Shown here one piece after another: positions 27,467 to 56,197 of a DNA stretch of 64,000 bases. The translations under genes and the position numbers were made by a program. The notes below the pieces were generated by a model, which did not search any database, had not been told where the DNA came from, and saw only the letters and a list, made by a program, of their open reading frames with translations. This DNA is from Ilex aquifolium (taxonomy: Eukaryota; Streptophyta; Magnoliopsida; Aquifoliales; Aquifoliaceae): the NCBI GenBank assembly GCA_951799425.1, contig OX637391.1, positions 23,298,551 to 23,362,550 of the forward strand. Direction: 5' to 3'. The stretch's first letter is position 1; each line of letters opens with the position of its first letter.

Positions 27467-27482
27467 CACTCCCCAACCTAAA
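27467..27482 (-). other. Element B polypurine tract
   Basis: The minus strand reads TTTAGGTTGGGGAGTG immediately before the 3' LTR start TGATTAG. It is identical to the tract in element A. Confidence 0.85.
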
Positions 27483-29293: not shown

Positions 29294-30358
29294 TCACTCT
29301 TCTGCATGTCCACTAGCTCCACCATGTCCACCATCCCTCATAAGCCTAAGGATCTCATCCTGCTTAGCTTCAATGCTAAACATGATGTCCCGTAAGGAGC
29401 GTCGGGTGCTGGTGCTGGTGCTAGGGCCTTCCTCTGGTGGCTGATCTCTCTCTCTCTCCATCTCTCTCTCCTCCTCTACATCAAGTTCCTCTTGTACTTC
29501 ATCCACTCCGTGGGCAGGGGGCATCTCCTGTCTGACTGCTGGGCCGCCACTATGACTTTGGCTTCTCCGGAAGGAAGCCTTGTTCAGTGGCCCCATCGAC
29601 TTTTGGATTTCCATCTCGGGCCTCACCTTGACCCCATTTTCCGTGCACATTTCAGTTACTAGGGTGCCAAAAGGAAGGGTGCTCCTCTTCACGTCACATC
29701 CTTTCTTCATTTCACTCAGGATGAGGGAGGGGAGATCAATGCTTTGCCCTTTTCCAATCGCATAGAGCAATCGGGCCATGTCAGGTAGAATTTCATTCTT
29801 TCTTCCTACGGGAGCGAAGTTGGACACCGCAATCAAATTTATCATTTTGTATTTGTCGGTGAGCTCCCCTTGCCTCAAAAATCTCCTCCCTGCCCATGAA
29901 AAGCCAGCTACCCCCGTCAATTCCTTTCCCACCACATTCATTGCTATGTCCTTCTTTGGGGGGTAGGTCGGGTTTTGCACTCGAGGTATTTCCTCCCTTA
30001 TTTCTACGATGTATGCTTCATCCACGTCAATGATCTTAGCGTTGGAGTAAAACTCCCGCACCAAGTCAACAACGGCGTCTCCACCATTCCTCAAGTACCA
30101 GACCCACTCCCTCCTCTCCATTTCATGCCTTATTCCAATCCCAGCAAAATCATCAATCACAACATCTCTCTCACAAACAACTGCATGCTTATGGTAGAAA
30201 TTTTCATACCTTTCAGCCTTTAAGGCATTGGGAAACCTGGTCCTGTCATATCTCTTCGTCCTTTGCCTTCCTTCCCTCTCTTCTATCACCTCTTCTACAA
30301 TATTTGGATCTTGGTTCACTGGTGGAGCACGCCTGGCAGGGAGTTTTACCCTTGGCAT
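29294..30358 (-). CDS. Element B accessory ORF (putative plant transposon protein domain, 354 aa)
   Basis: It is collinear with the A accessory protein and starts MPRVKLPARRAPPVNQ. It lacks about 12 residues relative to A: where A reads AEIINGAIRTYVRGTHIDVD, B reads AKIIDVD. The VRG motif kept in A, D and E is therefore gone through an in-frame 36-bp deletion. The C-terminal part keeps the acidic, coiled-coil-like tail. A perfect CGTTCGAACG palindrome sits at about 30361-30370, right before the ATG. The frame is open, but the deletion makes loss of function plausible. Confidence 0.8.
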   Translation of the reverse strand: MPRVKLPARRAPPVNQDPNIVEEVIEEREGRQRTKRYDRTRFPNALKAERYENFYHKHAVVCERDVVIDDFAGIGIRHEMERREWVWYLRNGGDAVVDLVREFYSNAKIIDVDEAYIVEIREEIPRVQNPTYPPKKDIAMNVVGKELTGVAGFSWAGRRFLRQGELTDKYKMINLIAVSNFAPVGRKNEILPDMARLLYAIGKGQSIDLPSLILSEMKKGCDVKRSTLPFGTLVTEMCTENGVKVRPEMEIQKSMGPLNKASFRRSQSHSGGPAVRQEMPPAHGVDEVQEELDVEEEREMERERDQPPEEGPSTSTSTRRSLRDIMFSIEAKQDEILRLMRDGGHGGASGHAEE

Positions 30359-30576
30359 AGCGTTCGAACGTGGGTTTTGGTTTGAGAGGGTGCTGAAAAG
30401 TGCTGGAAACTTGGGGTTCTTGGTGTGGGATTGATGATTTTGATGTGGAGAGGAGTTAGGGAGGGTCGAATTTGGGTATTTTTGGGGAATGATGGGGAAT
30501 TGAGGTCTGTGGAGTGAAAAGAGTTCTAGGGTTTTGAGAACAATTTGTGGATTTTGGCTGAAAACGACGATACAGG

Positions 30577-30900
30577 CTTTTATAGCCTGAGTTGTAACGT
30601 TCGAACGTTGGTGACGTTCGAACGTGTGTAGAAGGATTTTAAACAGACCGTTCGAACGTGGTTTGGCGTTCGAACGTGGTGAGCTCTCAGTACTTTTGTG
30701 TTCTGTCAGAGGCCAAAGTACTGCAAGTTCTGTTCGTTCGAACGTTCTATTGGCGTTCGAACGTTAATCTCGTTCGAACGGTCTATTGGCGTTCGAACGG
30801 ATAGAGATCCCAGTACTTTCACGTTTCATCAGAAGCTTCATCAGAGGCTGAGTACTGTAAGTAGCTGACGTTCGAACGTTACCTGGCGTTCGAACGTTGA
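30577..30900 (-). promoter_or_regulatory. Element B internal promoter-like block before the accessory ORF
   Basis: CGTTCGAACG-type palindromes fill about 30598-30897, mostly in pairs 17-19 bp apart. The minus strand carries TATAAAAG at 30577-30584, about 220 bp before the ATG. The block is the counterpart of 4584-4867 in element A, with an extra palindrome pair near 30757-30800. Function is inferred from layout. Confidence 0.62.
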
Positions 30901-31230
30901 ACCAAAAATTAAAATTTTTCTCCACTACACTATATACAATCAAAGAAGGCAAAACACACAAATTTAAATCAAAAAAACTAAGGCGTCTCAGGATGAACCC
31001 CTACCCACGCTTCAGGTTGGTACTTTGGGACAGTCCTTACTCGGCCCATATTTTCATTCTAGTTAAAAGAGTTTATACAAAAAGATTTTTACACTTTTTA
31101 CAACAACTTCGGACCTTTGGCTTTCACTCCCCCAACAAAAGTACACATTTCCTACAGAAAATTATCTAATCCGAGTCTCCTTCTGTGTTTGTGTAAAATG
31201 GACAACCAATAACTCTCCCAACTTCCTCTC

Positions 31231-31509
31231 TCACAAATCGGTTAAGCACAGTATCGGAATAGCATGGCGTACAAGGTAATCCTTACTCAGCCCATTCACT
31301 ATCCAGTCTAATCGATCAAGTGTGCGACCAGAAATTAGTTCAGAACACTGGTTGTACCTTTTTTCGTGAAAGACTCTACCGCACTGTTTACAGGCACCAA
31401 GCCTTTTGGCACGACGGCGTTTGCCAAAGCTGCTTCTGCCACAGAGAGGTTTCGCTTGTTTTTCTTTGATTTCAGCCTTCCTTACTAATCTTGCTTTTCT
31501 CATGATCAT
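31231..31509 (-). CDS. Element B small basic zinc-finger-like ORF (C terminus altered)
   Basis: The start shared with A is at 31509 (MIMRKARLVRKAEIKEKQ). An upstream Met at 31575 is not preserved in A. It keeps KRRRAKRLGACKQCGRVFHE and the CX2CX4HX6C pattern. After GLSKDY a frameshift replaces the A ending (PNTPYYSGTVLNRF) with LVRHAIPILCLTDL. The ORF lies between pol and the larger accessory ORF. Function is unknown. It may be damaged. Confidence 0.45.
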   Translation of the reverse strand: MIMRKARLVRKAEIKEKQAKPLCGRSSFGKRRRAKRLGACKQCGRVFHEKRYNQCSELISGRTLDRLDWIVNGLSKDYLVRHAIPILCLTDL

Positions 31510-31750
31510 AGTATGTACATCAGATGGAAAAGTACGTAGAACTCCTAGGCTAAACCAAAATTTTTTTACATCCATGATTGCTAAGTTTTAAGACTCACTA
31601 TCTGGTTCTTTAACGTCTGCCAGTCACAAAGACGATTGAAGCTGATTCATAAGCATAATCATCAATTTATACAATCAATGTTCAAACATGATCAACAACG
31701 ACAATATAAAAAATTTTAAAAATTTACGAAAATATGAACTAATGAACTGA

Positions 31751-31788
31751 TCATACCCCCCAACCTAAACTGAACATTGTCCCCAATG
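31751..31788 (-). other. Element B internal polypurine-like tract after pol
   Basis: The minus strand reads CATTGGGGACAATG, then TTTAGGTTGGGGGGTATGA. It matches the real PPT-LTR junction of B (TTTAGGTTGGGGAGTG followed by TGATTAG), including the first LTR bases. Confidence 0.6.
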
Positions 31789-32063
31789 TTTCGAATTTAC
31801 CGGTTCATGGATTGTGGAGACGAGGTTGAATGGTCGAGATCTGTTCACCCGCTGAGACTTACAAATAAAAACACAAAAATTACTCATCTGTGTGCAGATC
31901 TGGATTTCGAGTAGGCTAAAAATCCTTATGTGTGAGTGCGAACAAAAGAAGAACACCCATGAGCAAATATAAGATTAAAATGCAAAACATGAAACAAAAT
32001 ATCGTGTTTGTGGAGTGTGTGGTCATGGGTGGTTTCTCGGATAACAGAGAACTCGAAGACGAA

Positions 32064-32139
32064 CAGAAGGAAGAAGAAGAAAAGAAAAATAAGAAAAAGA
32101 AAAAGAAGAGGAAGAAGAAGAAAAAAGGGGGGGGGGGCC
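32064..32139 (-). repeat. Purine/pyrimidine tract just after pol in element B
   Basis: The plus strand is almost pure purine: GAAGAAGAAGAAAAGAAAAA continuing to a run of eleven G. On the coding strand it is a long pyrimidine tract 35-110 bp past the pol stop. It could form unusual DNA structure, and several frames read across it are artefacts. Confidence 0.7.
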
Positions 32140-32171
32140 AACTGCGGCGGCTGGGAGAAAAAGTGGGTGCC

Positions 32172-34892
32172 TTATAAAGGCGCCTCAGTGGGTCGGGTTG
32201 GAGTAGATTTTTCCTGACCCGATCCACTGGAGTGTCGGCAGGCGCGAATTTCAGAGGAGTACTCTGGTTCCATTAAAAGAATGGTTTCCACATTTTTAAC
32301 AAAATCCTCCAAAAATGGTTTTAACTGCTGACCATTAACAGTAAAATTATTACCGTTTGTTGGGTTTTCCACTTCAACGGCTCCATGTTCAAACACCTTT
32401 TTGACAATATAAGGCCCAGTCCATCTTGATTTCAACTTACCAGGAAAGAGGCGGAGTCTTGAATTAAATAGCAAGACTTTTTGAGACGGCTCAAAAGATT
32501 TCCGCACAATGTGTTTGTCATGAAAAATTTTCATCCTGGTTTTAGCAATCTTAGCATTTTCATATGCTTCATTTCTTAATTCCTCCAATTCATTTATCTG
32601 GAGTTTCCTTGCTAGCCCAGCCTTATCCAAGTCAAAATTCATTGCTTTAATGGCCCAGTATGCCCTATGTTCCAATTCCATAGGCAAGTGACATGGCTTT
32701 CCATAGACTAATTGATAAGGAGACATACCTAAAATTGTTTTAAAAGCAATACGGTATGCCAAGAGCGCATCAGTTAGTCTTAACGACCAATCTTTGCGAT
32801 CTGGATTCACCGTTTTTTCCAAAATTAATTTGATCTCCCGATTAGCTAACTCAGCTTGTCCACTGGTCTGTGGGTGATAAGGGGTTGAAATTTTGTGAAA
32901 AATCAAGTATTTTTTCATTAAATTCCAGAAAGGACGATTGCAAAAATGAGCACCCTCATCGCTTATGATTGATTTCGAAATTCTAAACCGGGACAAAATA
33001 TTTTCTTTCAAAAATTTGATCACTGTTTTGTGATCATTGTTTCGGCATGGAATTGCTTCAACCCATTTGGATACATAGTCTACAGCCACTAAAATGTACA
33101 GATAGCCAAAGGAAGGGGGAAATGGTCCCATAAAATCGATGCCCCAACAGTCAAAAATTTCAATTACCAGAATGGGGTTTAAGGGCATCATATTTCTTTT
33201 AGAAATGTTTCCCAACCTTTGACACCTATCACAAGTTAAACAAAAGGCATGGACATCTTTGAAAAGTGTGGGCCAGTAAAATCCACACTGCAATATTTTT
33301 GCAGCTGTTTTTCTTGATGAAAAGTGGCCACCGCATGCTTCAGAATGACAAAATGTTATTACCTGGCTACTTTCATGAGCAGGGATGCAAGGTCTTATGA
33401 TTTGATCTTTACAGTACTTGAATACATAAGGATCCTCCCAAAAGAAGTTACGAACCTCCCTCAGAAATTTATTTTTGTCCAACATGGTAAAGGATGGAGG
33501 GAATGTACCAGTAGCAAGAAAGTTAGCAATGTCTACAAACCATGGTGTCCTATCAATCATGAACAGTTGTTCATCGGGGAATTTCTCATTGATTGGCAGT
33601 CCATCCTCATGAAATTCATAGGTTAGTCTGGACAGATGATCTGCCACCACATTCTCAACACCTTTCTTGTCCTTAATGACAAGATCAAACTCTTGGAGAA
33701 AAAGTATCCATCTCAAGAGTCTTGGTTTGGCGTCCTTCTTTGTGAGCAAAAATTTTAGGGCTGCATGGTCAGTGAATACAGTAACAGAAGAACCAACAAG
33801 ATAAGAACGGAATTTTTCCAGTGCAAAAACTACAGCAAGCAAATCTTTCTCAGTTGTCGAATAATTCATTTGAGCATCATTCAAAGTTTTGCTTGCATAG
33901 TAAATCACATGGGGTTTCTTATCTTTTCTTTGTCCCAATACAGCACCTACAGCAAAATCACTTGCATCACACATTAGTTCAAAGGGGAGATTCCAGTCAG
34001 GCGATTGCATTATTGGTGCAGAAATTAACATGTTTTTTAGCTTGTCAAAGGCTTTTTGGCATGCTTCATTCCAATCAAAGATTACATCCTGACTTAGGAG
34101 GTGACACATGGGTTTTACTATGGTACTGAAATCTTTTATGAATCTCCTGTAGAAACCTGTATGTCCTAGGAATGATCGAACATCCTTTACAGTCTTAGGG
34201 GTAGACAAATTTCCAATCAGATCTATTTTTGCCTTGTCAACTTTCATGCCTTCAGACGACACAATGTGACCAAGGACAATGCCCTGTGTTACCATAAAAT
34301 GGCATTTTTCCCAATTGATCACTAGGTTGGCTTCCTTACATCTGATCAGTACTTTCTCCAGATTGGTTAAACACAAATCGAAGGAATCACCATAGACAGA
34401 GAAGTCATCCATGAATACTTCCAAAAAATTTTCAATCATGTCACTGAACAAGCTTAACATACATCTTTGGAATGTTGCAGGAGCGTTACAAAGTCCAAAT
34501 GGCATCCTTTTGAATGCAAAGGTGCCAAAGGGGCATGTGAAGGTTGTTTTCTCCTGATCATCTAGGGCTATCTCAATTTGGTTATACCCTGAATACCCAT
34601 CTAAGAAACAGTAAAATGCATGACCTGCAATTCTCTCTAGGACTTGGTCAAGAAATGGGAGAGGAAAATGATCTTTTCTAGTGACCAAATTGAGTTTTCG
34701 ATAATCAATGCACATTCGCCATCCTGTGACGACTCGAGTTGGTACTAGTTCATTTGCATCATTTTTTACCACTGTGACCCCAGATTTTTTTGGCACAACT
34801 TGGGTTGGACTAACCCATTTACTATCTGAGATAGGGAAGATTATCCCTGCATCTAAGAGTTTGAGTACCTCAATTCTCACAACTTCCTTCAT
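32172..34892 (-). pseudogene. Element B pol: reverse transcriptase, RNase H, integrase
   Basis: This is a 906-codon open stretch in the same frame as gag and protease, separated from protease only by a TGA at 34905-34907. Reverse transcriptase has [19 protein letters not shown] and the catalytic FMDD (about residues 160-163). RNase H follows with [16 protein letters not shown] and VADHLSRL (about 305-430). The integrase zinc domain is seen in [14 protein letters not shown] and CLTCDRCQ. Its core has [21 protein letters not shown] and [16 protein letters not shown] for D, D and E. The C-terminal part keeps [16 protein letters not shown] and SRWTGPYIV. All catalytic residues seem kept, so this half could be functional apart from the stop before it. 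Confidence 0.9.
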
Positions 34893-34904
34893 GTGAGGGT
34901 TCAG

Positions 34905-36203
34905 TCATCGCTGCATTTGACGAGAGGGTTTTGAATCCTCTTCAAGGTATATGGCATGATTGCAGATTAATGGGCTTATACCTTTCAAGTCAGCGATGGT
35001 CCATCCAATGGTACTTTTATGACTTCGAAGAACTTCAATCAGTTTGGGTGCCCATGTCTCAACAGTATGAGTAGGGCCACTTGGTGGATTTGGGTCATCA
35101 TCTGTTATTTCTGATGAGATGAGTTCTAACAGAGATGATTCAGTAGGATCCTCACAGAATGTATCATCCAGATGTTCCTGTATCAAAGATTCTATGGAGT
35201 TTACTTCCCTTTCTTCCTTTTCTTCTTCTGGATGTTTAGCAATATTGAAAATGTTCATTTCGAGAGTCATATTCCCAAAAGTTAATTTCATGACTCCATT
35301 CCTGCAATTGATTAAGGCATTTGAAGTTGCTAGGAATGGCCGACCAAGAATGACGGGAATTTGGTTCTCCTTATTTATTGCTGGTTGAGTATCCAGAACA
35401 ATGAAGTCAACAGGGAAGACAAAACTATCTACTTGGACAAGCACATCTTCAACAATCCCTCTGGGGGTTTTGACAGATCTGTCAGCCAACTGGAGTGTGA
35501 CACAAGTGGGTTTAAGTTCACCCAAACCCAACTGCTGATAGACATAGTAGGGTAGCAAATTAACGCTGGCTCCAAGGTCTAACAATGCTTGTTCAATCCT
35601 GAAGTTCCCAATGATACATGAGACAGTCAGACACCCCGGGTCTTTGTATTTTGGAAGGGTTTTATATTGAAGAAGAGCACTAGCTTGTTCCGTTAGGAAA
35701 GCTCTCTTTTGGACATTCTGGCTTCTCTTGATTGTGCACAAGTCTTTTAGAAACTTGGCATAAGACGGGACTTGTTTGATTGCATCCAGAAGTGGGATGT
35801 TGATATTTACTTGCTTAAAAAGCTCATAAATTTCAGGCTGATTTTTCACTTTATGTTTGGTTTTGAGTCGATGAGGAAACGGAGCCGGAATGAGATACGA
35901 AGGTTCCCTTTTCTCAGAAGGTTCTGGCTCTTGTTCAATCATAGGCTCAGGGTCTTTCTCAAGTTCAGTCTCAATTGGTTCAGATGATGGATTGGTTGAG
36001 CTTGACTCAGGTCTTGGCTTGGGAATGAGTATGTCTCTGATTGTCTTGTCAATCACCTTGCCACTTCTTAATGTCGTGACAACTTGGGCTTGGTCTTGGG
36101 TGTTTCCTGTTGTTGAAGGGTTCCCTACATGGAATTGGCCTTGTGGTTGTTTTGGTTGGGCAGGAAACTTGCCCTTTTCGTGTATGACCATGGACTGAGT
36201 CAA
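34905..36203 (-). pseudogene. Element B protease region of the polyprotein
   Basis: It is in frame with the flanking parts and bounded by TAG (36246-36248) and TGA (34905-34907). It holds VVTTLRSGK (common before Athila protease), APFPHRL, and the aspartic protease motif ALLDLGASVNLLPYYVYQQL near residue 210, with DLGA in place of the usual D-S/T-G-A. It continues PVILGRPFLATSNALINCRN, the second conserved protease part. It ends KPSRQMQR before the stop. Element D has RRLNP at that point, so the stop most likely replaced an arginine codon. Confidence 0.88.
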
Positions 36204-36245
36204 CTTTTGGATGTGGCTTTTAAGATCCTCAAAAGATTGAGTGGT

Positions 36246-37562
36246 CTAGGTTTTGAAATCAGTGAAAGCCTGTGTGGAATTATTGTTATAATTCATTTGG
36301 CTTTGCATGAACTGATTTAGTGTGTCCTCAAGGTTCCTCTTTTGTGGTGGTTGATATGGTTGATATGCAGGAGGTCCTTGGGGTGGTGGGTATGGCCCTT
36401 GTTGTTGGTTCATGGGTATTGGTTGTGTGTTCTTCCAACTGAAGTTAGGGTGGTTTCGCCACCCTGGATTGTATGTTTCAGAATATGGGTTGGAGTAGGG
36501 CTTGTCGAAGTTGGAAACTGCATGTGTTTGTTCCAACAAGACTTCTTTGAATGCTGGGATGGTGGGACACTCCCCAGTAAGGTGTCCTGTTAGCGCACAG
36601 ATTCCACACACTTGCTCGGTGGAAGGGCTAACATCAACTTGATGGACTTTCTTCATCTCCAAAGCTTCAAGTTTTCGAGACAATGTGGACATTTTTGCTT
36701 TCAAGTCATCATCCTCTCTCAAGACATATTTTCCTCATTGGGACATAGATGGTCTGGCTTCTACAGTGGTAGGGGAGGCTGAATCCCACATCTGAGAACT
36801 GTCAGATATGGTGTCGAAAAAATTGAATGCCTCCTCCGGACTTTTTCCCATGAATTCTCCTTGGGCCATCATTTCGACAAACTGACGTAGTCTAGAGGGT
36901 AAGGAGTCATAGAAAAATCCTACCAAAGTCCAATTTTCAAAAGCATGATGTGGGCAGGATTGGAGCAGATCTTTGAATCTCTCCCAACTTTGATAAAAAG
37001 TTTCTCCTTCTTTAATCGCAAAATTCATGATTTGCCTTTTTAGTGCATTTGTGCGGTGTAGAGGAAAAAACTTTCTAAAAAATTCATTTTGTAATGCTTG
37101 CCAGTTGGGTATTGAAAAAGCTTTTAAAGAATTTAACCATTGTTTGGCTCTATCCCTCAAGGAGAAAGAAAACAGTTTCATTTTGGCCAATTCAGAATTG
37201 TCTTGAAATGTTCCATACACTTCCTCAAAATCTTTCATATGCAGATATGGATTTTCTGCATCCAATCCATGAAACACGGGTAATAACTGCACTGTCCCCG
37301 GCTTTACAGTAAAGAGGGGAGCATTTTCAGGAAAAATAAAACAAGAGGGGACACTATTTCTTGTGGGATTTAAGTAATCCCGCAAAGTTCGGATGTTAGG
37401 GACCTCCTCCTCTCTCATAGGGACTTCTCCATTTCTTTCATTATTTGTCATACTACCCTCACAAGAGTCTGCTACTGATCTAGGTGAATTAGGTTCAGGC
37501 TGATTCACGGACTCACACGATTCTGCCGGCAAATTTTGGAAGCGAGGAGTGCCCTCAGTCAT
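36246..37562 (-). pseudogene. Element B gag and nucleocapsid, with in-frame stop
   Basis: The start at 37562 opens 275 codons ending at TGA (36735-36737), and the same frame continues to TAG at 36246-36248. The capsid-like part has LRDYLNPTRNSVPSCF, LLPVFHGLDAENPYLHMKDF, KLFSFSLRDRAKQWL, FFRKFFP and SWERFKDLLQSCPHH, as in Athila gag. The zinc knuckle CGICALTGHLTGEC fits CX2CX4HX4C exactly. The TAG lies in FKT-stop-TTQS, where glutamine fits, so CAG to TAG is likely. gag and pol share one frame with no programmed frameshift. Confidence 0.88.
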
Positions 37563-37657
37563 AAAGAAAATAAAACAAAGTTATTTACAGTAAACCAAAG
37601 AGTATACACAACGTTGAAGGTCTTTTTACCTTTCACCTTAAAACACCTTTTAAAGGT

Positions 37658-37675
37658 TCCCCGGTAACGGCGCCA
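37658..37675 (-). other. Element B primer binding site (tRNA-Asp)
   Basis: The minus strand reads TGGCGCCGTTACCGGGGA, one mismatch from the tRNA-Asp complement found in A and D. It lies six bases inside the 5' LTR. Confidence 0.9.
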
Positions 37676-37681
37676 AAAACT

Positions 37682-39628
37682 TGTTCTTGATCCGAAATGT
37701 GTACACCCAAGTGCAGGCGGTCAAGCTGTAGTAATAATCCGGTTTGAGTCCGGAGTCGAATCCACATGGAACTTTTGTTGATATTTCTGAGGTGAGCAGT
37801 GGTAGAGACCTATTGATTGTAACCCTTGAGATTTGTTGTGAGATATGATTTTTCCTGGACAGAATATAAGATTCTTTCCAAGAGGATTTTCTTAACAAAA
37901 CAAGACATAAGTGCTAATTAAAAAGAGTCACTCTTTAGTGCAAGGATCTGGACATGTAGTTAGTTATCCGGTTTGTCATAATTGTGCTTGATAACTCAAT
38001 TAACTCCCATGTCAACAGCAAGTTAATCGGAAGATAAAGATGGATTGTGAGAATTAAGAACATGATTCCGATGTCTTTCTAGAAGTTTACAAGAATTGCC
38101 TGTGCCGAGACTTAACCCGTCTACAAACAAGCAAGTGTTTCTACAAGACATCCAATCATGATATTAATATTCCATTCTTTAAATGAAGTACAATAAGGGG
38201 GAATATTGAGGGGTAGTCATGAGGATCTAGCCGGGGTACTTGCCTTGAACTGATGAGTCTTTCTATGCAAGAGTCATCGGTGTCATAGAAAGAACCCACA
38301 ATTATACAAAGTACCCTAGCTTTGCTAGATGCAATCAATCATCCAATAACAAGAGGAAATAAGCGTCAAGCATAGAAACATTGCACAAATATGATTCCCG
38401 GATAACTTATACATGCCCTTCTCCTCTTACTAAAGAGTGAATGAGAAACTACTCACTCTTCATGGCTTGGGTAAAGCTAGAAAAGTGAGTGATGCTCATC
38501 CCTCCAAGTAGAGAACTTAAAAGATAAAGTAACAACAAACACGGAGCCAATCTTTAACAAAGAATGGGTGAATCACGTTCCACCCTTCACGGCTTTGGTA
38601 AAGCTCTAGAAAAGTGGAAGAGTTTCACTCTTCTAAGAAAGAAAGAAGCTCAAGCAATGGAAGTGAAATGCATGAACAATAAAAGTAGAAGAAAGCTAGT
38701 CACATTTGGAAGGTGGCTTCCTCAACCAAGAATTGGAGGGTTGCTTCCTCAACCAAAAGGTGAGCTATCTCTCTTCTATGCATGTAAAATGAAAGCATAA
38801 ACATAAGCATAAGCATAAAACTACTTTTATAACAAGCAAGAGATGTTGGACTAAAGCCAAATTAATCTCTAAAATAAAGACTTCATACAAGGAAAATAAG
38901 CTAAATCTACAATGAGAGTGGGAGTCTAAGCCTCCATCAACTGTCCTCCTTGGCTCCTTTTAGCTCTCCAACAAGGGGAGTATTTATAGGCAAGAGGAGG
39001 AGACAAGAGGAGGTGAAGGAATAGTATTTGCCGCCCAAGTCCAAGTGAAAAGTCAACCACTCTACTGCCAGTCTGTGGAGAACGTTCGAACGTGAGTTGG
39101 CGTTCGAACGTTGTTTCTGTTTTTGCACTATGGGCGTTCGAACGTTGACTGCTGTTCGAACGTTTCTTCTGTTTTTGCACTATGGGCGTTCGAACGCCAG
39201 ATTTGCTCTGACCCTTTCACTCGAGTGGTCTTTTGGTCTTTTGTGAAGTTCAGTTCCAACTCTATGCAGTAGTTTGGTCATCAATCAACTCAAGTGCACG
39301 TTCGAACGTGAGTTGGCATTCGAACCTGACACTCAAGTGCTTCAGAACTTCAGTCTTCTTTCCTCACTGCAACACGCCTTCTCTTAGTAGTTGAGTCTGC
39401 GACAGTGTAATGTGGACATTCGAATGTGAGTTGGCGTTCGAACGTTCTGGCTGTGTTCCAAGCTTCTCCAATTTTGGCTCTAATGTGCTGGTGTTGCATC
39501 CAAGTGTGGTACTTGTTGTTCTTGGGTCCTTGTTCAGTTTAGGGCCTGAAATGACATCACTTAAACTCCATCAAAGTACAATTAGTCTTAAAATGTCACA
39601 ATAATATGTCAATTTTAAGTACTAATCA
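37682..39628 (-). repeat. Element B 5' LTR (right copy, 1947 bp)
   Basis: It begins TGTTCTTGATCC and ends TACTAATCA, with TGTAC duplicated outside. Its length equals that of the left LTR. The plus-strand frame at 38564-38800, repeated in all four LTRs of this family, is antisense and not called. Confidence 0.95.
38981..39444 (-). promoter_or_regulatory. Element B LTR promoter: palindrome array and TATA box
   Basis: Palindromes of the CGTTCGAACG type start at 39083, 39101, 39135, 39153, 39187, 39299, 39317, 39417 and 39435. Four pairs are spaced exactly 18 bp, and the first three groups start 52 bp apart. The TATA box (CCTATAAATA on the minus strand, 38981-38990) lies about 90 bp downstream. 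CTGTTTTTGCACTATGGG separates groups. Each perfect site holds three CpG. Confidence 0.65.
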
Positions 39629-40507: not shown

Positions 40508-41118
40508 TGTAACACCCCAAAACACACCCTGGACGGCATTACATTCTAAAACATTCATATCATGAGAGCACTAATATAATTCCTTAAGAAATGAGACTTC
40601 ATTTGCCATCCACAATATTTACAAAGTAATCCAAAAGAATAAGCTCAAATTATGGCTATTACATCTCAAAAATTAATTAAAGTAGCACAGCGGAATAAAC
40701 AAAAGAAACTAGACTACACAATGTTCCAAAAGAATGTCCTAGTCTAGTACAAAAGGAAAGGAGGTCGCTCGATGCGTCCACCTCGGGATCCACACTCCCG
40801 TCCAGTGGAGTATCCCAAGTAGCGGGCTCCTCGACCCTTACGTCCTCCTCAAGCAGGTAATCTGAAAAATGTTAGCGGTAGGGGGTGAGCACAAAGCTCT
40901 GTAGAAAAATTCTCTTAAACCCATACAAGGTTTAGAAAAGCATTTAAAACGGTCGGTCTCATTTTTAACATAACATAGATACATAATCTGAAATAAAACA
41001 GTGACATTTAAAAAGGATCTCAAGTTTATGTAAAAACATTACTTAAATGAATAAACAAGTACCACATACAAATAATCACCATTTATTTGCCATAAACACT
41101 TTCCAACAATTCTTTCGG

Positions 41119-41257
41119 TAGGTGGCATACTTTAGGGTAACCTCCACCCCCATTATTTCGGTAGGTGGCATACTTTAGGGTAACCTCCACCCCCATTCAT
41201 TTCGGTAGGTGGCATACTTTAGGGTAACCTCCACCCCCATTCATTTCGGTAGGTGGC
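41119..41257. repeat. 43/44-bp tandem repeat, left part (split by element D)
   Basis: Units begin CGGTAGGTGGCATACTTTAG and continue GGTAACCTCCACCCCCATT. Three full units and the first bases of a fourth lie here. The rest of the fourth unit and five more follow at 55924-56177. Element D cut the fourth unit and duplicated GTGGC from it. Confidence 0.9.
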
Positions 41258-43365
41258 TGATTAGCACATAACAATGACATGTATGGTGTGCTAATGTGCT
41301 TTTGTTTCACCTTTTTTGTCAATAAATGGGAGTGTTTTGGTTTTGTTTGTGGCTTGATGGAATTTTGGGTGAATGCATGTAAAATGATGTAAATGACATG
41401 ATTTAAACCCCCATGGTGTTATATGAGGCTAATGGAGTGTATGGGGTAGCTTTAAGGATGGTTTGGAGGGGAAAGAAATCCAATTTTTGCTCACAGTCTG
41501 AAAACCTTCCGGAAGGTGTATGTCGGCCTTCCGGAAGGTTTTGCTAAAAACCCTGGAAGCCTTGTTCACAGCTAATACCTTCCGGAAGGTTTTGTCCATT
41601 GGAATGAACCTTCCGGAAGATTTTAGCTACTGGAGTAAAACCTTCCGGAAGGACTTGTCTACTGGAATGGACCTTCCGGAAGGTTTTGCCTTGGGTTTCT
41701 TTTTTACTGCCAAAATCTTCCGGAAGGTTTTGTTTTCTGGAATGAACCTTCCGGAAGATTTTAGCTACTGGAGTAAAACCTTCCGGAAGGACTTGTCTAC
41801 TGGAATGGACCTTCTGGAAGGTTTTGCCTTGGGTTTCTTTTTGACTGCCAAAATCTTCCGGAAGGTTTTGTTTTCTGGAATGAACCTTCCGGAAGGTTTT
41901 GGCTACTGGAATGAACCTTCCGGAAGATTTTTGCTACTGATGTCGACCTTCCGGAAGTTCTTGCATTTGATTCTTTTCATTTAACTGTTCTTTCAGCGAC
42001 CTTCCGGTAGGTGTATGTCGACCTTCCGGAAGGTTTTTGCACTTTTCTCCAGACAGCCTGTAACTCAACTTTGCGGCTTGGAGGGTCCCACATGCACTTC
42101 TCCTACATGCTTCCTGACATCCCTTACACATCTTGGAGCCTCCCTCACCCCTGCATTGATTTGGATGAGTCTTGATAATTAATGAAGAGAGAGAAGAAGA
42201 AGGAAGCTTGGTGGGCAGACAGCTCTGCCTCACCCCCTGTCCAGCCCATGTTGCTGCACCCCTAGTGATGGAGATCAACTCTGTAGACCTCCCTCTCTCT
42301 CCAGGCACGTTTTGGGGGGAAAGCAAGAGTCTCCTTGGGGGGGTATTCATGGATGATGTATTGTATGATATAGTTTGAGAGAGAGGAGCTCTAGGAGAGA
42401 AGAAGATGAATAGTGGTTTTTAGAGAGAGAAAGTGACGATTTTACCATTTCTCCTACTGCATTTGTCTTGTAATCTTGAGTAAGAATCTTAGTAGTTCAT
42501 TGAATGCCATAAATGTTGTTTTCCCTTCATGTTTGGTTAGTTGAATGCTCCCATTTATGTTCTACCATTAATGCTTTCAAGATTATTCTTGTTCATAGAT
42601 ATAAAATAGCTTTTCATTTCATTCACTTCTAGTCTAGGATTTCTTGCACTTAGTTACTTAAAAACTCCATAGCCTTAGAATGCATTACCTTTACATTATC
42701 ATGTCTAGTTCAAGTATGAGTAGCTAAGCACTTTTTGTTGGCAAGACCAAGGGGAATCCTCATTGGGGTATACCATTTCAACTCTTTCTACACCCTCCCT
42801 TTAGAGTCCCATGGTTCGGTTTGACCGGATTGAAGGTGGATGATTTGGTGAGTCTTTGATAACCCGCAGGCCTAGTCACGGTTTATGCTTAGGCACTCAC
42901 CATCATCATCCTCGGCTTCCCGTGAATCAACCGTTCATTCTTGCTCAATCGGAGGAGTGTTTTGAGTTGAGATAGTATACCCATTGGAGGGATCTCTTGG
43001 AATTGCCAACACTTGTTTTCTCATTCTAATTTCACCAACACACACTTCACCAAACAATTTCCAACAACAAGAATTTTACACTTTCTTTTGCACTAAATCA
43101 CTTTCACATTTGCTCACTTCCTTCCCTGTGGAATCGACCTTGGAATACTTTCCAAGTAAAACACAACTCACGAAAGTCTCCTTGCGATTGGGGAGCATTT
43201 TTGTGCATACACATTCCATATCTACATCATCCCATTTCCCTTTCCTATTGCCCTTTCTTTTCACACTATCCCAAAGGGGGAGAAATCCTTCCTTCCGCTC
43301 ATACATTGCATCATTTGAAGGATAGTAGTTAAAGGGTTAGGAATAGGATTGTTTTTTATCAATCA
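41258..43365 (+). repeat. Element D 5' LTR (2108 bp)
   Basis: It begins TGATTAGCACATAAC and ends TTTATCAATCA. The first third is filled with CTTCCGGAAG palindromes. A TATA-like ATATAAAATA is at about 42598, but I cannot fix the promoter start. The long plus-strand frame at 41520-41984 and the minus-strand frame at 41934-42350 arise from the repeats and are not genes. Confidence 0.95.
41506..42032 (+). promoter_or_regulatory. Element D LTR palindrome array with heat-shock-element matches
   Basis: About 14 perfect CTTCCGGAAG sites and two near copies (CTTCTGGAAG, CTTCCGGTAG) occur, most spaced 31-32 bp. Where the preceding bases are TGAAC the result is tGAAccTTCcgGAAg, an exact nGAAnnTTCnnGAAn. 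Such sites are at 41605-41619, 41743-41757, 41881-41895 and 41912-41926. Part of the array is a tandem copy of a unit of about 138 bp. Heat induction is inferred, not shown. Confidence 0.6.
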
Positions 43366-43369
43366 TTTT

Positions 43370-43387
43370 TGGCGCCGTTGCCGGGGA
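43370..43387 (+). other. Element D primer binding site (tRNA-Asp)
   Basis: TGGCGCCGTTGCCGGGGA is an exact complement of the tRNA-Asp 3' end and lies four bases after the 5' LTR. Confidence 0.93.
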
Positions 43388-43524
43388 AGGCTAGTGTCAA
43401 ATCAAGGAAGTGATTTTCGAACAACGGAGGTAAGTCCCGTGATCTTCATCACGGGCTGAGGTACGTTGTCTTGTGTACATATTCTTGTTTGTTTATAATT
43501 TCATTTGTATAGATATCTTGTTGC

Positions 43525-44778
43525 ATGTGGGGAAGGGACGACTATCACCGATTAGTTAGACAACCCTTAGACCCCAACATGAACATCGACCAAGACCCAC
43601 CCGAAGATGCGGGTGACAATTTTGAAAATGTGGATGCCAACCCAAACATCCAAGGGGGTGGAAATTTTGAAAATGTTGGTGCAAATCCAAATGTTCAAAG
43701 GGGTGGGGGATTACCCGAACATAGGATGCCTAACCCAAGAATGCAATATCCCCCTCCCGATGCTTTTGATAATGAGGATGCTAACCCGAATAGGCAAATG
43801 GGTGGGGGATTCCAACAACCTAGGATGCCCAACCCACGAGTGCAATTTCCCCCACCTAGTAATGAAGGGAACATCCAACTTGACCCTCCACCAAGGACAA
43901 TGCGGGAGTTCCTTCAGCCGACCCGTAGCTCCACACCATCATGCCTTGTCCTTCCTGTCCAAGCACATCTCTTTGTAATCAAACCATGGATGTTGCAACT
44001 ACTCCCTAAATTCCATGGGGTTGAGAAGGAAAACCCTTATAGTCATTTAAAGTCTTATGAGGAAATAGTTGCAACCTTTATCCCAAATTACAACATGGAA
44101 GAGATTGCAAGGATGAAACTTTTCTCTTTTTCCTTGGAGGGTAAGGCAAAGATTTGGTTTGATTCCATGGGACCTCGGACCATGCTATCTTGGGACCATA
44201 TAGTTTCATTCTTTTTGAAAAAGTTTTTTCCGGTTCATAGAACCACTTCATTGAAAAAAGACATTCAAAACTTTTCTGAAAAACCCAATGAACAATTCTA
44301 TCAGTGTTGGGAGCGATATAGAGATTTGATTCAATCCATACCACATCATGGTTTTAAATCGTGGCAATTGGTGAGTTTCTTCTATGAAGGAATCTCACCA
44401 AACCATAGGCAATTTATTGACATGATGTGCAATGGTGAATTTTTGAACAAAGACCCTGACGAGGCCCTTGACTACTTTGGTACCTTGGCTGAAAATGCAC
44501 AATCGTGGGATGTTAGGGATCCAAGTGATGTACCTAGGACAATGCCAGTGAGTAGTCAACCACCACGGGGAGGGATATATGATCTGAAAGACCGGGAGGA
44601 CCTACTTTCCCAAATTTCCAAATTGTCTAGGAAAGTAGATAGCCTTGAGGTGGAAAGGAGACGAGAGGTGTCTCATGTGTCAAGAGCCGAGGAGGCTTGC
44701 TCTATTTGTGGGGGTGTCGATCATTCCACGTCGGAGTGTCCGAGCATTCCGGCACTTAAAGAGACATACCATGAATAG
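43525..44778 (+). pseudogene. Element D gag and nucleocapsid (ends at premature TAG)
   Basis: The first Met at 43525 opens 417 codons. An Asn/Pro-rich N-terminal part with imperfect repeats (NPNIQGGGNFENVGANPNVQ, then MPNPRMQ and MPNPRVQ) precedes the capsid-like domain: MREFLQPTRSSTPSCLVL, LLPKFHGVEKENPYSHLKSY, KLFSFSLEGKAKIWF, CWERYRDLIQSIPHHGF, FFYEGISP. The zinc knuckle CSICGGVDHSTSEC fits CX2CX4HX4C. The stop TAG at 44776 follows YHE, where B has EQTH, so it is probably CAG to TAG. The same frame continues past it into protease, so gag and pol were one polyprotein. Confidence 0.9.
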
Positions 44779-47331
44779 GCCAATGCCTTCAACCAACCGA
44801 GGCAATCATTTCCTCAAAATTCCAACACTTACAATTCAGGGTATCGTGATCACCCTAATTTCAGTTGGAGGAATGAGAACCCCATTCCTTATGGCTCAAA
44901 CACATATACACCTCCCGCACCTCCTAGGCAAAGCCAATTTCAATCCCAGGGTCAAGGGCAAGCCTCTAACTCCCAATACCCACGGTCTAATCCGCAAGGG
45001 TATCAATCCAATCCTCCCCCACAAAATTTCTCCCAACAAGGTCCGTCTAGTTCTTCCATCTACCAACCCCCTCATAAGAAGAATTTGGAAGATATGCTCC
45101 ACAATTTTATTCAAACCCAGACCACCCTCAATCAAACCTTCACTAATTTCATGCAAAGCCAAACCACCTTCAATAAGGACATTTCGGCCCAACTCACCAA
45201 GATCACCAATGCCATTGGGTTGTCTCAACAAGAGAAGGGAAAATTTCCCTCTCAACCCCAACAAAATCCCAAGGGTCAAAATGTGGTTGAGTTGGCTGAG
45301 ACTTCCCAGGAGGGTTTTGAGCAACTCAAAGCTGTCACCACACTTAGGAGTGGTAAACAAATTGAAAAGATGGTGGTGCCAAAGTTGACACCAAAGGCCG
45401 CATTGCCAAAAGAAAAAGAAAGTGATAGTGAGGCCAAAGAAAGTGTGGTCGACAAGGGCGAGTCGAGTGAAAAGAGTGAGAGAGATGGGGTTGATAAAGA
45501 ACATGTGTTTGATGATGGTTTATGCTTTCCTTCTATGTCCGCCCCTTTTCCCCATCGGTTGAAGCCACCTCTCAAGGTGGCTAATTATTCTGACATTTTG
45601 GATTTGTTTAAGCAGGTAAAGATCAACATCCCGCTCCTTGATGCCATCAAGCAAATTCCGTCATGTGCCAAGATATTGAAGGACCTATGCACTGTGAAAA
45701 GGAAGTTGAATGTCCGGAAGAAGGCATTTATCACTGAACAAGTGAGCTCTATATTGAGGACCAACACTCCTCCAAAATTCAAGGATCCCGGTTGTCCAAC
45801 AATTGCGATCACCATCGGGAATTGCCGGGTTGAGCAGGCATTGCTTGACTTGGGGGCGAGCGTCAATCTTCTTCCTTACTCAGTGTACCAACAACTCAAG
45901 CTTGAAGAGTTGAAGCCCACCTCAGTTACACTTCAACTGGCGGATCGGAGCATACGCACACCAAGGGGAGTAGTGGAAGATGTGCTTGTCCAAGTTGACA
46001 ATTTTTACTTTCCAGTCGATTTTATTGTATTAGATACACACCCGGTTGCTAACCTTAATTCCCAAATCCCCGTTATTCTTGGAAGACCTTTCCTTGCTAC
46101 CGCTAACACAGTGATTAATTGCAGGAATGGTCTAATGAAGTTGGCTTTTGGGAACATGACCATGGAGCTGAATGTATTCAACCTAGCAAAACAACCCGGG
46201 GATGATGTGGAGGTGAACGAGATCAATAGAATCGACACTTTGATTGAGGAGCAAGTGAAGTTAGAAGGAATGTTGGACTGCATGGAGGAGGACTTTGTTG
46301 AACTTGTAAAGTTAGATGAGGAAGAGAGCGTGGAAGGTTTGAAAGGGGTGGATAAGTGGATCCCAACATTTGAAAGACTCCCACACCAAGAGAAGAAGAT
46401 ATTTCCATCCGATGTACAAAAGCCTACCTTGGAATTGAAGCCACTACCTTCCCACTTAAAGTATGCATATCTTGGGGAAGATGAATCATTCCCGGTGGTG
46501 ATTAGTTCGACATTGGATGCAAAGCAAGAAGGAGATCTCTTGGAGGTGCTGCGAAGACATAAGGGAGCAATTGGGTGGACAATTGTGGATATCAAGGGGA
46601 TAAATCCTACCATTTGCACACACCGGATCTACCTTGAAGAAGATGCAAAACCATCTCGCCAGCCACAAAGGAGATTAAATCCGATCATGAAGGATGTGGT
46701 ACGGGATGAGGTTTTGAAACTACTTGACGTGGGCATTATCTTTCCAATTGCCGACAGCAAGTGGGTTAGTCCCACGCAAGTAGTACCCAAGAAGTCGGGT
46801 GTGACTGTGGTAGAAAATGAGGAGAATGAACTCATTCCAACAAGGGTAATCACTGGATGGAGAGTGTGTATTGATTACCGGAAGCTCAACTTGTGCACAA
46901 GGAAAGACCACTTTCCAATCCCATTCCTCGATCAGGTGCTAGAACGGGTAGCGGGGCATCTTTTCTATTGCTTCTTAGATGGATACTCTGGCTACAATCA
47001 GATAGAGATTGCCCTTGAAGACCAAGAGAAAACCACTTTCACTTGCCCCTACGGTACCTTTGCGTATCGTCGCATGCCTTTCGGGCTATGTAATGCCCCT
47101 GGAACATTCCAACGTTGCATGATGGGGATTTTTAGTGATATGGTGGAGAAGATTGTCGAGGTGTTTATGGATGACTTCTCAGTCTTCGGGGATTCTTTCG
47201 AGGGGTGTTTGGGGAATTTGAAGAAGGTGTTAGAAAGGTGTGAGGAGAAGAATCTAGTTCTGAATTGGGAGAAATGTCACTTCATGGTGACACAAGGAAT
47301 TGTGCTCGGGCACATCATCTCGGCAAAAGGG
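44779..47331 (+). pseudogene. Element D protease and reverse transcriptase (ends at frameshift)
   Basis: It is in the gag frame. A Gln/Pro-rich linker is followed by AVTTLRSGKQIEKMVVPK, then protease (ALLDLGASVNLLPYSVYQQL, PVILGRPFLATANTVINCRN). Next come WTIVDIKGI and SRQPQRRLNPIMKDVV, then reverse transcriptase with [40 protein letters not shown] and catalytic FMDD (about 47167). At AKG an extra G in the run at 47329-47331 shifts the frame. The expected IEVDKSKVEAISNLPTPK is found in the next frame. The shadow frames at 44645-45388 and 44896-45504 should be ignored. Confidence 0.9.
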
Positions 47332-49345
47332 AATCGAAGTGGACAAATCAAAGGTGGAGGCCATCTCCAACCTCCCTACGCCAAAGGTCATCAAAGATAT
47401 CAGGTCGTTTCTGGGCCATGCAGGTTTTTACCGTCGGTTTATAAAAAATTTTAGTGCATTGGCCCGCCCGTTGACCAATTTGTTATCCAAAGATGTCCCT
47501 TTTGTTTGGTCGGATAGTTGTGAGGCATCTTTTTCAAAACTTAAGAGTATGCTTGTCACGCCTCCAATTATGCGACCACCCAAGTGGGACTTACCTTTTG
47601 AGCTTATGTGCGACGCAAGTGATTATGCGGTCGGTGCAGTGCTCGGTCAAAGGGAGGATAATAGACCATATGTAATATACTATGCTAGCAAAACTCTGAA
47701 TGAGGCCCAAATGAATTATACCACCACATAAAAGGAGTTGCTAGCAGTAGTATTTGCATTAGATAAATTTCGGTCTTACATCATTGGTTCACCGATAATT
47801 GTTTTCACTGATCATTCTGCTTTAAAGTATCTACTGTCTAAGCAGGATGCCAAACCAAGGCTTATCCGGTGGATCCTCCTACTTCAAGAGTTCAATCTGA
47901 TAATCAAAGATAAGAAAGGAGTAGAGAACGTGGTGGCGGGCCATCTATCTAGATTGGTGGTGCAAGAGGCTGATGAGCACACTCCAATTCCTGATTCTTT
48001 TCCCGATGAGCATTTATTGTCCATTCATTCTCATTGTCCTTGGTATGCTGACATTTGCAATTATCTTGCAACAGGACAAATACCACCGAAGTGGAGCCCT
48101 GAAGATAAAAGGAGGTTTATGGCGGACGTTAAGTACTTCTACTTCGATAATCCGTATCTGTTCAAGTACTGCCCAGACCAAATCATGAGGCGATGTGTGC
48201 CTGAAAATGAGCAGCGGAATGTCCTTGCCTTCTGTCACTCCCAAGCCTGCGGTGGCCACTTCTCCGCCAAGAAAACTTCTTCAAAAATTCTCCAATCAGG
48301 TTTCTACTGGCCTTCTTTAATTAAGGATTGTATTTCATTTTGCAAAGAATGTGATAGATGCCAACGTTTGGGGAATGTGACCCGGAGGAATATGATGCCC
48401 CTCTCCCCTGTACTTGTCATAGAGATATTCGATTGTTGGGGCATTGACTTCATGGGTCCCTTCCCTATGTCGTTTGGCTATCTATACATTCTGCTGGCAG
48501 TGGACTACGTGTCCAAATGGGTGGAGGCTATCCCAACCAGGACTAACGACCACCGGGTTGTAGTCAAGTTCTTAAAAGAGAACATTTTTTCGAGGTTCGG
48601 GATGCCTCGTGCTTTGATTAGTGATGGTGGATTACACTTTTGTAACAGGCCAGTTGCATCATTATTGTTCAAATATGGCGTTACACATAAAGTATCCACC
48701 GCTTATCACCCACAAACAAATGGCCAAGCCGAGCTAGCCAATAGGGAGATCAAGACCATCCTCGAAAAAACAGTTAACCCCAATAGGAAGGATTGGTCTG
48801 AGAGATTGATTGATGCCCTATGGGCATATCGTACGACCTACAAGACAGTTTTGGGCATGTCTCCCTATCGGCTTGTCTATGGAAAGGCTTGCCATCTGCC
48901 GGTAGAAATGGAACACAAGGCCTATTGGGCCATCAAGACTTTAAATTTCAATATGAGAATGGCCGGTACACATAGGATGTTAGAAATGAATGAATTGGAA
49001 GAGATTCGGCGGGATGCATACGAGAGTTCAAAAATTTCAAAGGAACGGGCGAAAATCTTTCATGATAACTCCATAGTGAGGAAATCATTCGAGCCCGGGC
49101 AAAAGGTACTCTTGTATAATTCCCGCCTCTCCATTTTTCCTGGAAAGCTAAGATCCCGTTGGGATGGCCCTTACCTCGTCAAGGTGGCCTACCCCAATGG
49201 AGCTGTTGAGATCACCAACCTCAAAGATGGCCAAACATTCAAGGTCAATGGCCAAAGACTTAAGCCATTCTTTGAGGGCTTTGAAAACCAAGTGGTGGAA
49301 GAGGAGTTAACCGACCCGGTGTATCCGGAAGTGATTAAGGAATGA
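47332..49345 (+). pseudogene. Element D RNase H and integrase (one stop, one lost catalytic residue)
   Basis: It resumes with IEVDKSKVEAISNLPTPKVI. RNase H shows [16 protein letters not shown] and [15 protein letters not shown] at 47729-47731 replaces the E of TTEKELLA (B keeps TTEKDLLA), a catalytic glutamate. The last catalytic Asp of VADHLSRL reads VAGHLSRL. Integrase follows: [67 protein letters not shown], and a C-terminal part with [13 protein letters not shown]. It ends with TGA at 49343-49345. Integrase itself looks complete. Confidence 0.9.
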
Positions 49346-49554
49346 CAATTGGTCCCTTGTTCGCATGTACAGTTTCTTTTATTTTAATTATGTCATGTTT
49401 TTATGTTATGTCACTTACTTGTTGTTGGTGTATAGCCTTGTTTTCTTTTGAATCCAGATCTTGGTGCTTTTGTCGAAAGCGAAATTGCGAGGTGCTCTCT
49501 TACCTTATCTATCCCTTTTATTGTCTTCCATTGCATATTATATCTTTTTGTTGC

Positions 49555-49588
49555 ATTGAGGACAATGCATGGTTCTAGTTGGGGGGTG
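49555..49588 (+). other. Element D internal polypurine-like tract after pol
   Basis: ATTGAGGACAATG is followed by TAGTTGGGGGGTG. The last 13 bases match the real tract of D (AAGTTGGGGGGTG, 53804-53816) at 12 of 13 positions. The same pair of motifs follows pol in A, B and E. Confidence 0.62.
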
Positions 49589-51409: not shown

Positions 51410-51546
51410 CTTCCGGAAGGTTTTGCCCAGTAAGTAAAACCTTCCGGAAGGTTCACATAGACCTTCCGGAAGATCTTACCTACTGACTGTTTTAAATTAG
51501 GCAGTGAGTAAAACCTTCCGGAAGGTTCACATCGACCTTCCGGAAG
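51410..51546 (+). promoter_or_regulatory. Element D palindromes upstream of accessory ORF, two exact heat-shock elements
   Basis: CTTCCGGAAG starts at 51410, 51441, 51463, 51515 and 51537 (gaps 31, 22, 52, 22). At 51441-51455 and 51515-51529 the sequence cTTCcgGAAggTTCa is an exact nTTCnnGAAnnTTCn. The block ends 297 bp before the ORF start. A TTTTAAAT at about 51578 is shared in context with E and may serve as a TATA box. Confidence 0.58.
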
Positions 51547-56177: not shown

Positions 56178-56197
56178 TCGGTCATCTTTGATTCTCA

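Follow-up and report, generated by a model that had tools for sequence, protein, structure and literature searches.

Family-specific palindrome arrays in the long terminal repeats and upstream of the accessory genes of Ty3/gypsy retrotransposons of Ilex aquifolium are candidate operator sites at two promoters per element

The single 64-kb window of Ilex aquifolium DNA analysed here (the whole stretch of 64,000 nucleotides; positions 23,298,551 to 23,362,550 of contig OX637391.1, assembly GCA_951799425.1) is rich in nested long terminal repeat (LTR) retrotransposons, several of which carry short palindromic words repeated in arrays. What these arrays do for the elements that carry them is the question raised by this locus. 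The original prediction saw in them one recurring regulatory design, in which family-specific palindromes lie 50-150 bp upstream of a TATA box in the LTRs of gypsy and copia families. We found that in two Ty3/gypsy families the same palindrome occurs in the LTR and again upstream of an accessory open reading frame (ORF) that follows pol. Based on the sequence, we propose with a probability of roughly 0.6 that the arrays serve as operators, at two promoters in each element, to which a dimeric DNA-binding protein attaches; the accessory protein itself might be this binder.

The palindrome arrays are real and far beyond chance. The word of family A, CGTTCGAACG, occurs in 51 exact copies in the window and the word of family D, CTTCCGGAAG, in 30, with 0.00 and 0.03 copies, respectively, expected from shuffles. 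These two words make up 81 of the 158 perfect 10-nt palindromes, while first-order Markov simulation (30 runs) yielded on average 69 such palindromes per window and at most five copies of any single word. Since both words had originally been chosen by eye, we also ran a bias-free scan, in which every palindromic 10-mer with at least four G/C was scored per 200-bp window, allowing up to two mismatches: at least four sites were present in 82 of 1276 real windows versus 8 of 6380 simulated ones. Sixty-five of the 82 dense windows fell inside the arrays described below; the 17 others (one at 15301 in solo LTR F, two at 48701-48751 in D, eight at 55901-56251 in repeats of C, two at 62351-62401 and four at 63101-63251) were in 14 cases situated in other local repeats. 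The copia word, CCGCTCGAGCGG, is present as one exact copy plus relics. The repeated palindromes that had been claimed are thus firmly present in the gypsy families, while the copia arrays are weak and mostly relics.

In both elements of family A (A1 and A2), CGTTCGAACG occupies two places, the LTR and the region upstream of the accessory ORF after pol, and element D shows the same dual placement with CTTCCGGAAG (Table 1); A and D are the two Ty3/gypsy families with LTRs as well as interior inside the window. A third word, CTACCGGTAG, stands as relics at the matching internal place in E, a degenerate relative of D with matching pieces between 8052 and 13140 that was apparently cut by A1 (sites at 9074, 9096, 9142 and 9164, with 1, 2, 0 and 1 mismatches, respectively), and the broken ORF downstream of these sites matches the accessory ORF of D by BLAST. 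When LTR and internal sites were compared, the 10-bp cores were 97% (A1) and 99% (D) identical versus 32-38% for the flanking 14 bp on each side. The expectation that all arrays lie in LTRs fails for the internal arrays of A1, A2 and D.

The order of genes places the accessory ORF in a comparable setting in both families. In A2, gag, protease, reverse transcriptase (RT), RNase H and integrase are followed by an ORF with the Pfam domain PF20167, and within the frame at 32172-34904 RT and RNase H come before integrase, which is the gypsy order. For D, Pfam identified gag, protease and RT and then the PF20167 ORF, in the same order as in A2. A1 has lost its gag-pol stretch (the A1/A2 alignment jumps A2 31859-37644), and it keeps its LTRs, the primer site, the internal promoter region and the accessory ORF, which is its sole ORF of at least 150 amino acids.

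All seven arrays of A and C, only three of which are independent cases, have a strict TATA box on the right strand 13-102 bp away, a position expected by chance at 1.4% (array-linked boxes excluded) to 2.6% (included). At the coordinates named in the original prediction, which fall in the A2 5' LTR, the TATA box is found at 38988-38981 (minus strand) and six perfect palindromes within 39083-39444. The distance between array and box is 94-102 bp in the A LTRs, 53 bp in the solo LTR C, 123 bp in copia copy 4 and only 13 bp at the internal arrays of A. With a TATA box this close to the array, a putative internal promoter is visible in A; for D and E, we infer one. Neighbouring sites of a pair are spaced 17-19 bp apart in A and 18 bp in C.

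The LTR promoter of C and the internal promoter of A also have about 100 bp in common (78.6% identity), including CAGTACT...AGTACTGGGAGC. BLAST aligns this module in the same orientation to the TATA box, and CAGTACT...AGTACTGGGAGC is near-symmetric and aligns reversed too. Because of this shared stretch, a promoter module seems to have been passed between element families. The LTR families hence do not represent four independent cases, as had been assumed, since the two A elements belong to one family and C shares both the palindrome and the internal promoter stretch of A.

Selection on the palindromes was tested in one family, A, by comparing both LTRs of A1 with both LTRs of A2 and separating fixed differences from columns that vary without being fixed. 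Fixed differences were absent from the palindromes (0 of 90 positions) and present in the spacers (22 of 272; Fisher p 0.002) and in the rest of the LTR (34 of 1060), while variable but unfixed columns amounted to 9 of 90, 6 of 272 and 47 of 1060, respectively. The corresponding McDonald-Kreitman-like table (palindrome 0:9 versus spacer 22:6) gives p 4e-5, a value that, like the count of nine unfixed columns, is inflated because CpG-rich words mutate faster once silenced. In the internal arrays, A1 and A2 differ at 2 of 90 palindrome positions, both C-to-T changes at CpG in A1, versus 22 of 183 spacer positions (p 0.006). Indeed, most changes within the words are of this type: CpG transitions account for eight of the nine unfixed palindrome columns (the one at 7615 is common to the A1 and A2 5' LTRs and hence not private) and for 11 of the 12 deviations across the 61 sites of A and C. 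Such an excess is expected of methylated, silenced copies. The family A palindromes thus appear to have been kept by selection, and our reading is that the words may have been maintained as long as the elements were active and decayed after silencing. The accessory ORF gave a similar picture, with nonsynonymous and synonymous divergence between A1 and A2 of dN 0.052 and dS 0.265 over 352 codons; the resulting dN/dS of 0.20 indicates that the protein of A has been under constraint. In A1, its frame is still open despite the loss of gag-pol.

A comparison of D with E provides a second line of evidence. The half-sites of D (CTTCC/GGAAG) and of E (CTACC/GGTAG) are one base apart, and this change is mirrored in both halves of the palindrome, as would be expected if the binder had two-fold symmetry; array turnover must then have spread the change from copy to copy. 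One half-changed site, CTTCCGGTAG, is present in each D LTR (42001 and 54560). Pairs of sites at 22 bp recur in both relatives (2 of 15 intervals in the D LTR, 2 of 4 in the D internal array and 2 of 3 in E), and GAC precedes the second member in both pairs of E and, counting the 5' LTR and the internal array, in three of the four pairs of D.

Taken together, the arrays are probably cis-regulatory sites bound by protein. The words are dyad-symmetric, spaceless, conserved and located beside two promoters, and for these reasons we regard them as predicted operators at which a dimeric protein would bind DNA in a sequence-specific manner, both at the LTR promoter (in U3) and at the separate internal promoter from which the accessory gene downstream of pol would be expressed. 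Protein binding, the dimeric state of the binder and the activation or de-silencing of both promoters by the bound protein are steps that we infer. The likeliest, though tentative, candidate for the binder is the PF20167 protein that the element itself encodes and that would act, specifically within its family, on the LTR and on the promoter of its own gene, given that a word precedes the accessory gene in all three gypsy families with their interior in view (A, D and E), that these three words differ, and that the gene is constrained in A and outlives gag-pol in A1. A bolder and rather unlikely extension is that PF20167 proteins are family-specific DNA-binding regulators, retrotransposon counterparts of the VANC proteins of VANDAL elements, each recognising its own palindrome at the promoter of its gene and in the LTR and thereby lifting the silencing of no family but its own. 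Their specificity would then switch through mirrored half-site changes (CTTCC versus CTACC), A1 would carry a regulator without gag-pol, and C and others would exploit the system via the shared promoter module.

Alternatively, a host transcription factor might bind the sites, with the elements borrowing a host signal such as stress through different factors per family. We consider this unlikely, although it has points in its favour. The heat-shock element contains the half-site pair TTCnnGAA, and the D word, as TTCCGGAA, fits this pattern; the A word with its TTCGAA and the E word CTACCGGTAG do not. Plant LTRs do make use of host activators, as mentioned for the heat-activated ONSEN and heat shock factors in the accessible text of PMC12859917, and the repeated motifs of Sireviruses matched mainly stress-related PLACE sites in the excerpts of PMC2829016. 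Against a host factor, copies of these motifs occurred, in the same excerpts, in the linker of nine of nine motif-bearing elements with env and in none of the four without, and the elements here have three different words (A, D and E), each preceding an accessory gene. An improbable alternative is that the arrays work as RNA structure, with hairpins between neighbouring copies serving genome dimerisation, packaging or the production of small RNAs. The arrays fold strongly, with folding-energy z-scores versus shuffles of -6.5 (A LTR), -8.0 (A internal) and -15.8 (D LTR), and palindrome regions of maize Sireviruses are small-RNA hotspots according to the accessible parts of PMC5311732 and PMC10760457. 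Strong folding is unable to separate DNA from RNA function, because repeated self-complementary words must fold; moreover, a hairpin requires two complementary arms, not a self-palindrome in each unit, units distant from any partner are still perfect (995, 30361 and 56969), and a TATA box follows the internal arrays of A after 13 bp, a location at which one would expect them to work in a promoter. Functionless minisatellite expansion, for which one could cite the short-period calls of a tandem repeat finder on parts of the arrays, the 138-bp higher-order unit of the D array and non-palindromic tandem repeats nearby, is very improbable in view of the LTR/internal agreement in cores but not flanks, the zero fixed changes in the A LTR cores and the recurrence of three different words at matching internal places.

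Besides the inflation noted above, several observations weigh against operator sites at two promoters as a general explanation. Dual placement is visible in only two families, because the E LTR lies outside the window, and C shares CGTTCGAACG with A while its own accessory gene is out of view. No strict TATA box was found at the promoter position in the D LTRs, the D internal array or the E internal array (GATATAG occurs about 335 bp downstream of the array in the D LTR), and none of the A, D and E arrays is present in the solo LTR F, despite its kinship with D. When the palindromes of A are set against all other LTR positions rather than the spacers, the signal is weaker (p 0.045 for fixed differences, p 0.003 for the table); only three of the seven deviations in near-perfect D sites are CpG transitions, and D yields no selection signal of its own because its LTRs are 99% identical. 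For the accessory protein, a DNA-binding fold could not be demonstrated in models with a mean predicted local distance difference test score (pLDDT) of 34 and 44, and no close relative was present among solved structures (weak matches to 4fi5, E 0.0067, and 7ase, E 0.018). The design is not universal: F is array-less, the D LTR is without a strict TATA box and the copia arrays are mostly relics. The generality expected of it, across both superfamilies and with a TATA box invariably close downstream, was therefore too strong. One recurring design with family-specific dyad-symmetric sites is nevertheless supported, and better than the original prediction could know, by the dual placement in A and D, the freedom of the A LTR palindromes from fixed change and the mirrored change between D and E; that each array would bind a factor particular to its family is a reasonable hypothesis.

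Table 1. Coordinates of the elements, arrays, TATA boxes and accessory ORFs in the 64-kb window.
Feature	Position	Strand	Remarks
Element A1	1..7825	-	3' LTR extends beyond the window; same family as A2
A1 3' LTR array	891..1253	-	8/9 sites perfect; TATA box 788-781
A1 accessory ORF	3259..4365	-	368 amino acids; PF20167 (Transposase_32); frame open
A1 lone palindrome site	4368..4377	-	One CpG transition; immediately before accessory ATG
A1 internal TATA box	4584..4591	-	TATAAAAG; 13 bp from array
A1 internal array	4605..4867	-	8 sites, 7 perfect; upstream of accessory ORF
A1 5' LTR array	7279..7641	-	7/9 sites perfect; TATA box 7179-7172
E internal array	9074..9173	-	Four sites of the third word CTACCGGTAG (0-2 mismatches), paired at 22 bp
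Solo LTR F	14283..16090	-	Related to D (78% across 538 bp); flanked by target duplication GTGAC
Copia LTR copy 2 array	19982..20110	+	Array of relics; sites 1 to 3 spaced by 21 and 20 bp
Copia LTR copy 4 array	24387..24422	-	Two sites 20 bp apart (GACCGCTCGAGCGGCC, GACTGCTCGAGCAGCC); TATA box 24263 (minus), 123 bp away
Element A2	25520..39628	-	5-bp target duplication GTACA; LTRs 97.6% identical
A2 3' LTR array	26921..27282	-	7/9 sites perfect; TATA box 26826-26819
A2 accessory ORF	29294..30358	-	354 amino acids; PF20167
A2 11th internal site	30361..30370	-	Perfect; before accessory ATG
A2 internal array	30598..30896	-	10/10 sites perfect; upstream of accessory ORF; TATA box 30584-30577
A2 5' LTR TATA box	38981..38988	-	TATAAATA; 94 bp from array
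A2 5' LTR array	39083..39444	-	9 sites, 6 perfect CGTTCGAACG
Solo LTR C	40508..57494	-	Interrupted by D; termini TGTAACACCCC/GGGGTGTTACA; target duplication ATCTC
Element D	41258..55923	+	Inserted in C; flanked by target duplication GTGGC; 99.0% identity between LTRs
D 5' LTR array	41506..42032	+	16 sites, 14 perfect CTTCCGGAAG
D internal array	51410..51546	+	5/5 perfect CTTCCGGAAG; upstream of accessory ORF; no strict TATA box
D accessory ORF	51843..53492	+	549 amino acids; PF20167
D 3' LTR array	54065..54591	+	16 sites, 11 perfect CTTCCGGAAG
C array	56969..57099	-	5/5 perfect CGTTCGAACG; TATA box 56915-56908, 53 bp away

The accessory ORFs of A1, A2 and D all carry PF20167, with extra weak matches, below curated cut-offs, for D alone. 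Protein database searches at E values of at most 0.001 returned one relative for the A1 accessory protein and one for residues 85-320 of the D protein. The D (51843-51968) and E (8738-8621) accessory ORFs open with a hydrophobic stretch that is followed by a second methionine; read from there, they begin MAKTKR (D) and MARTKQ (E, by eye), and the relative P0005 starts MVRSKR without a hydrophobic stretch. ARTKQ is the start of histone H3, a likeness that may be due to chance. Within the D accessory ORF, a near-perfect duplication of 237 bp (99%) at 52884-53338 repeats a proline-rich stretch and the part following it.

We also searched other collections of contigs. Among viral contigs, the D integrase region gave pattern matches in 13 stretches with zero confirmed relatives, the paired word of A was not found, and eight contigs match the paired pattern of D, as a pattern match only. 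A scan of genome contigs with A2 pol returned 16 stretches and two confirmed relatives, L009 (72% identical) and L010 (39%), both of which look like plant contamination; L009 is filed under Candidatus Nomurabacteria and is probably plant contamination of a metagenome-assembled genome. The 1.74 kb after the pol stop of L009 contain no repeated palindrome, which may count against the proposed operator design; with the pol-to-array spacing of A2 (1.28 kb) an array would be visible there, with that of D (2.07 kb) it would not. In L009, no accessory ORF was found and no convincing match to five accessory proteins (best E 0.10), and the top palindromes of L010 are single copies.

Among the remaining features, the copia LTR copies lie in the interval from 17.2 to 24.9 kb. 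In copy 4, a perfect site is accompanied by a second one with two mismatches, copies 1 and 2 have relics only, 20-21 bp apart, and copy 3 has only chance-quality matches (5-6 mismatches in 16). A strict TATA box stands at the promoter position in copies 3 and 4 and not in copies 1 and 2, such that the clear boxes expected in copies 1, 3 and 4 were borne out for the latter two only. The interval of F was considered as an array-less 5' LTR of E and rejected; given the target duplication GTGAC on its flanks and the lack of a primer site after it, it is a solo LTR of another family. One window of F (15301-15500) has four loose TGGCATGCCA matches, possibly by chance. The termini of C (TGTAACACCCC...GGGGTGTTACA) we take to resemble chromovirus ends. 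C further contains four copies of the gapped palindrome TCCTTACAAGGA at 56202-56328 (spacing 34, 47 and 34), about 600 bp downstream of its TATA box, and a tandem repeat of about 44 bp that was split by the D insertion (41109-41257 and 55924-56182). On the strand opposite the A2 gag region, 36940-37039 is a marginal Rfam match to plant snoR71 (41.1 bits, gathering threshold 40). Two copies of about 130 bp at 63144-63432, 79% identical, GGCTCG-rich and with several TCGAGCTCGA-like sites, were assigned to no element, and an inverted repeat at 60935-61420 (arms of about 207 bp, 84% complementary) adjoins AT-rich 47-bp tandem repeats.

In our analysis, the closest known design is the repeated motif of Sireviruses rather than the VANC system. 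According to the accessible text of Bousios et al. 2010 (PMC2829016), palindromic motifs are repeated upstream of the LTR TATA box in 13 Sireviruses; the nine with env have linker copies too, of which 77 of 79 precede the env-like gene, none occur in the other four, which lack env, and an internal promoter could not be conclusively identified. Shared with our elements are many-copy palindromes that differ between elements and lie before the LTR TATA box (here in A and C) as well as before an env-like or accessory gene; here, the internal copies are those of A1, A2, D and E (the latter as relics), and D has an array but no strict TATA box. The Sirevirus arrays are described in these excerpts as CpG-rich, and the observed/expected CpG ratio here is 1.2-1.8 in A, 2.3 in C, 0.64-0.89 in D and 0.34 in E, with 0.49 for the window. 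The excerpts also report a CGG-CCG order in all but one of the 13 motifs, the exception being Tnd-1 (PMC2829016), whereas CGTTCGAACG, CTTCCGGAAG and CTACCGGTAG lack a CGG...CCG order and are spaceless. Moreover, the elements here are Ty3/gypsy with a PF20167 ORF, A has an evident internal TATA box, and selection was tested. A2 is not itself a Sirevirus, because RT precedes integrase, while Ty1/copia has integrase before RT. Maize Sirevirus LTR palindromes (Bousios et al. 2016) are, in the accessible portions of PMC5311732 and PMC10760457, clustered in a cis-region of the LTR and targeted by small RNAs, and one maize copia palindrome is also common in Helitrons (PMC10760457); those are copia elements with small-RNA data, ours gypsy elements known from sequence.

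The parallel with VANC that had been drawn at the outset stands for short, family-specific, repeated motifs. The motifs of VANDAL elements are arranged in tandem in noncoding parts and differ between related families (PMC5735166, PMC10398659, as far as the accessible text goes), and the presence of the VANC6 motif in the unrelated AT9TSD1 (PMC5735166) parallels the sharing of the A word by C. It is looser than the Sirevirus likeness, since these excerpts (PMC5735166, PMC10398659) do not present the VANC motifs YAGTATTAY, AGTTGTCC and AGTTGTAC as palindromic, and VANDAL elements are DNA transposons for which binding and demethylation were shown. A2 and D are not VANDAL (Mutator-like) elements, because they are LTR retrotransposons with 5-bp target duplications.

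By domain content, the gypsy pol order and the PF20167-type ORF 3' of pol liken our elements to Athila. An env-like role has often been proposed for the extra gene of Athila-type retrotransposons. Sunflower Athila has a PF20167 accessory ORF 3' of pol (PMC11728184, PMC12844716); PF20167 is linked to Athila ORF1 in PMC11728184, where a predicted nuclear localisation signal is also reported. The accessible parts of both papers mention neither a palindrome array nor an internal promoter, and we recognised no report of palindrome arrays at Athila accessory promoters in the titles, abstract openings and excerpts covered of the open-licence literature. Whether Athila-encoded proteins shape their own epigenetic state or methylation is still to be investigated, according to a 2026 paper (PMC12844716, in part). 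New here are a Sirevirus-like design in Ty3/gypsy elements, the visible internal promoter of A, the test for selection and the mirrored change of the motif between related families. Because one palindrome stands both in the LTR and before the accessory gene, and families differ in their palindromes, one can ask directly which protein recognises the word, and the proposed mechanism, if true, would add new sequence-specific plant DNA-binding proteins with matched sites. Together with the Sirevirus case, it would also mean that two superfamilies of retrotransposons share one design.

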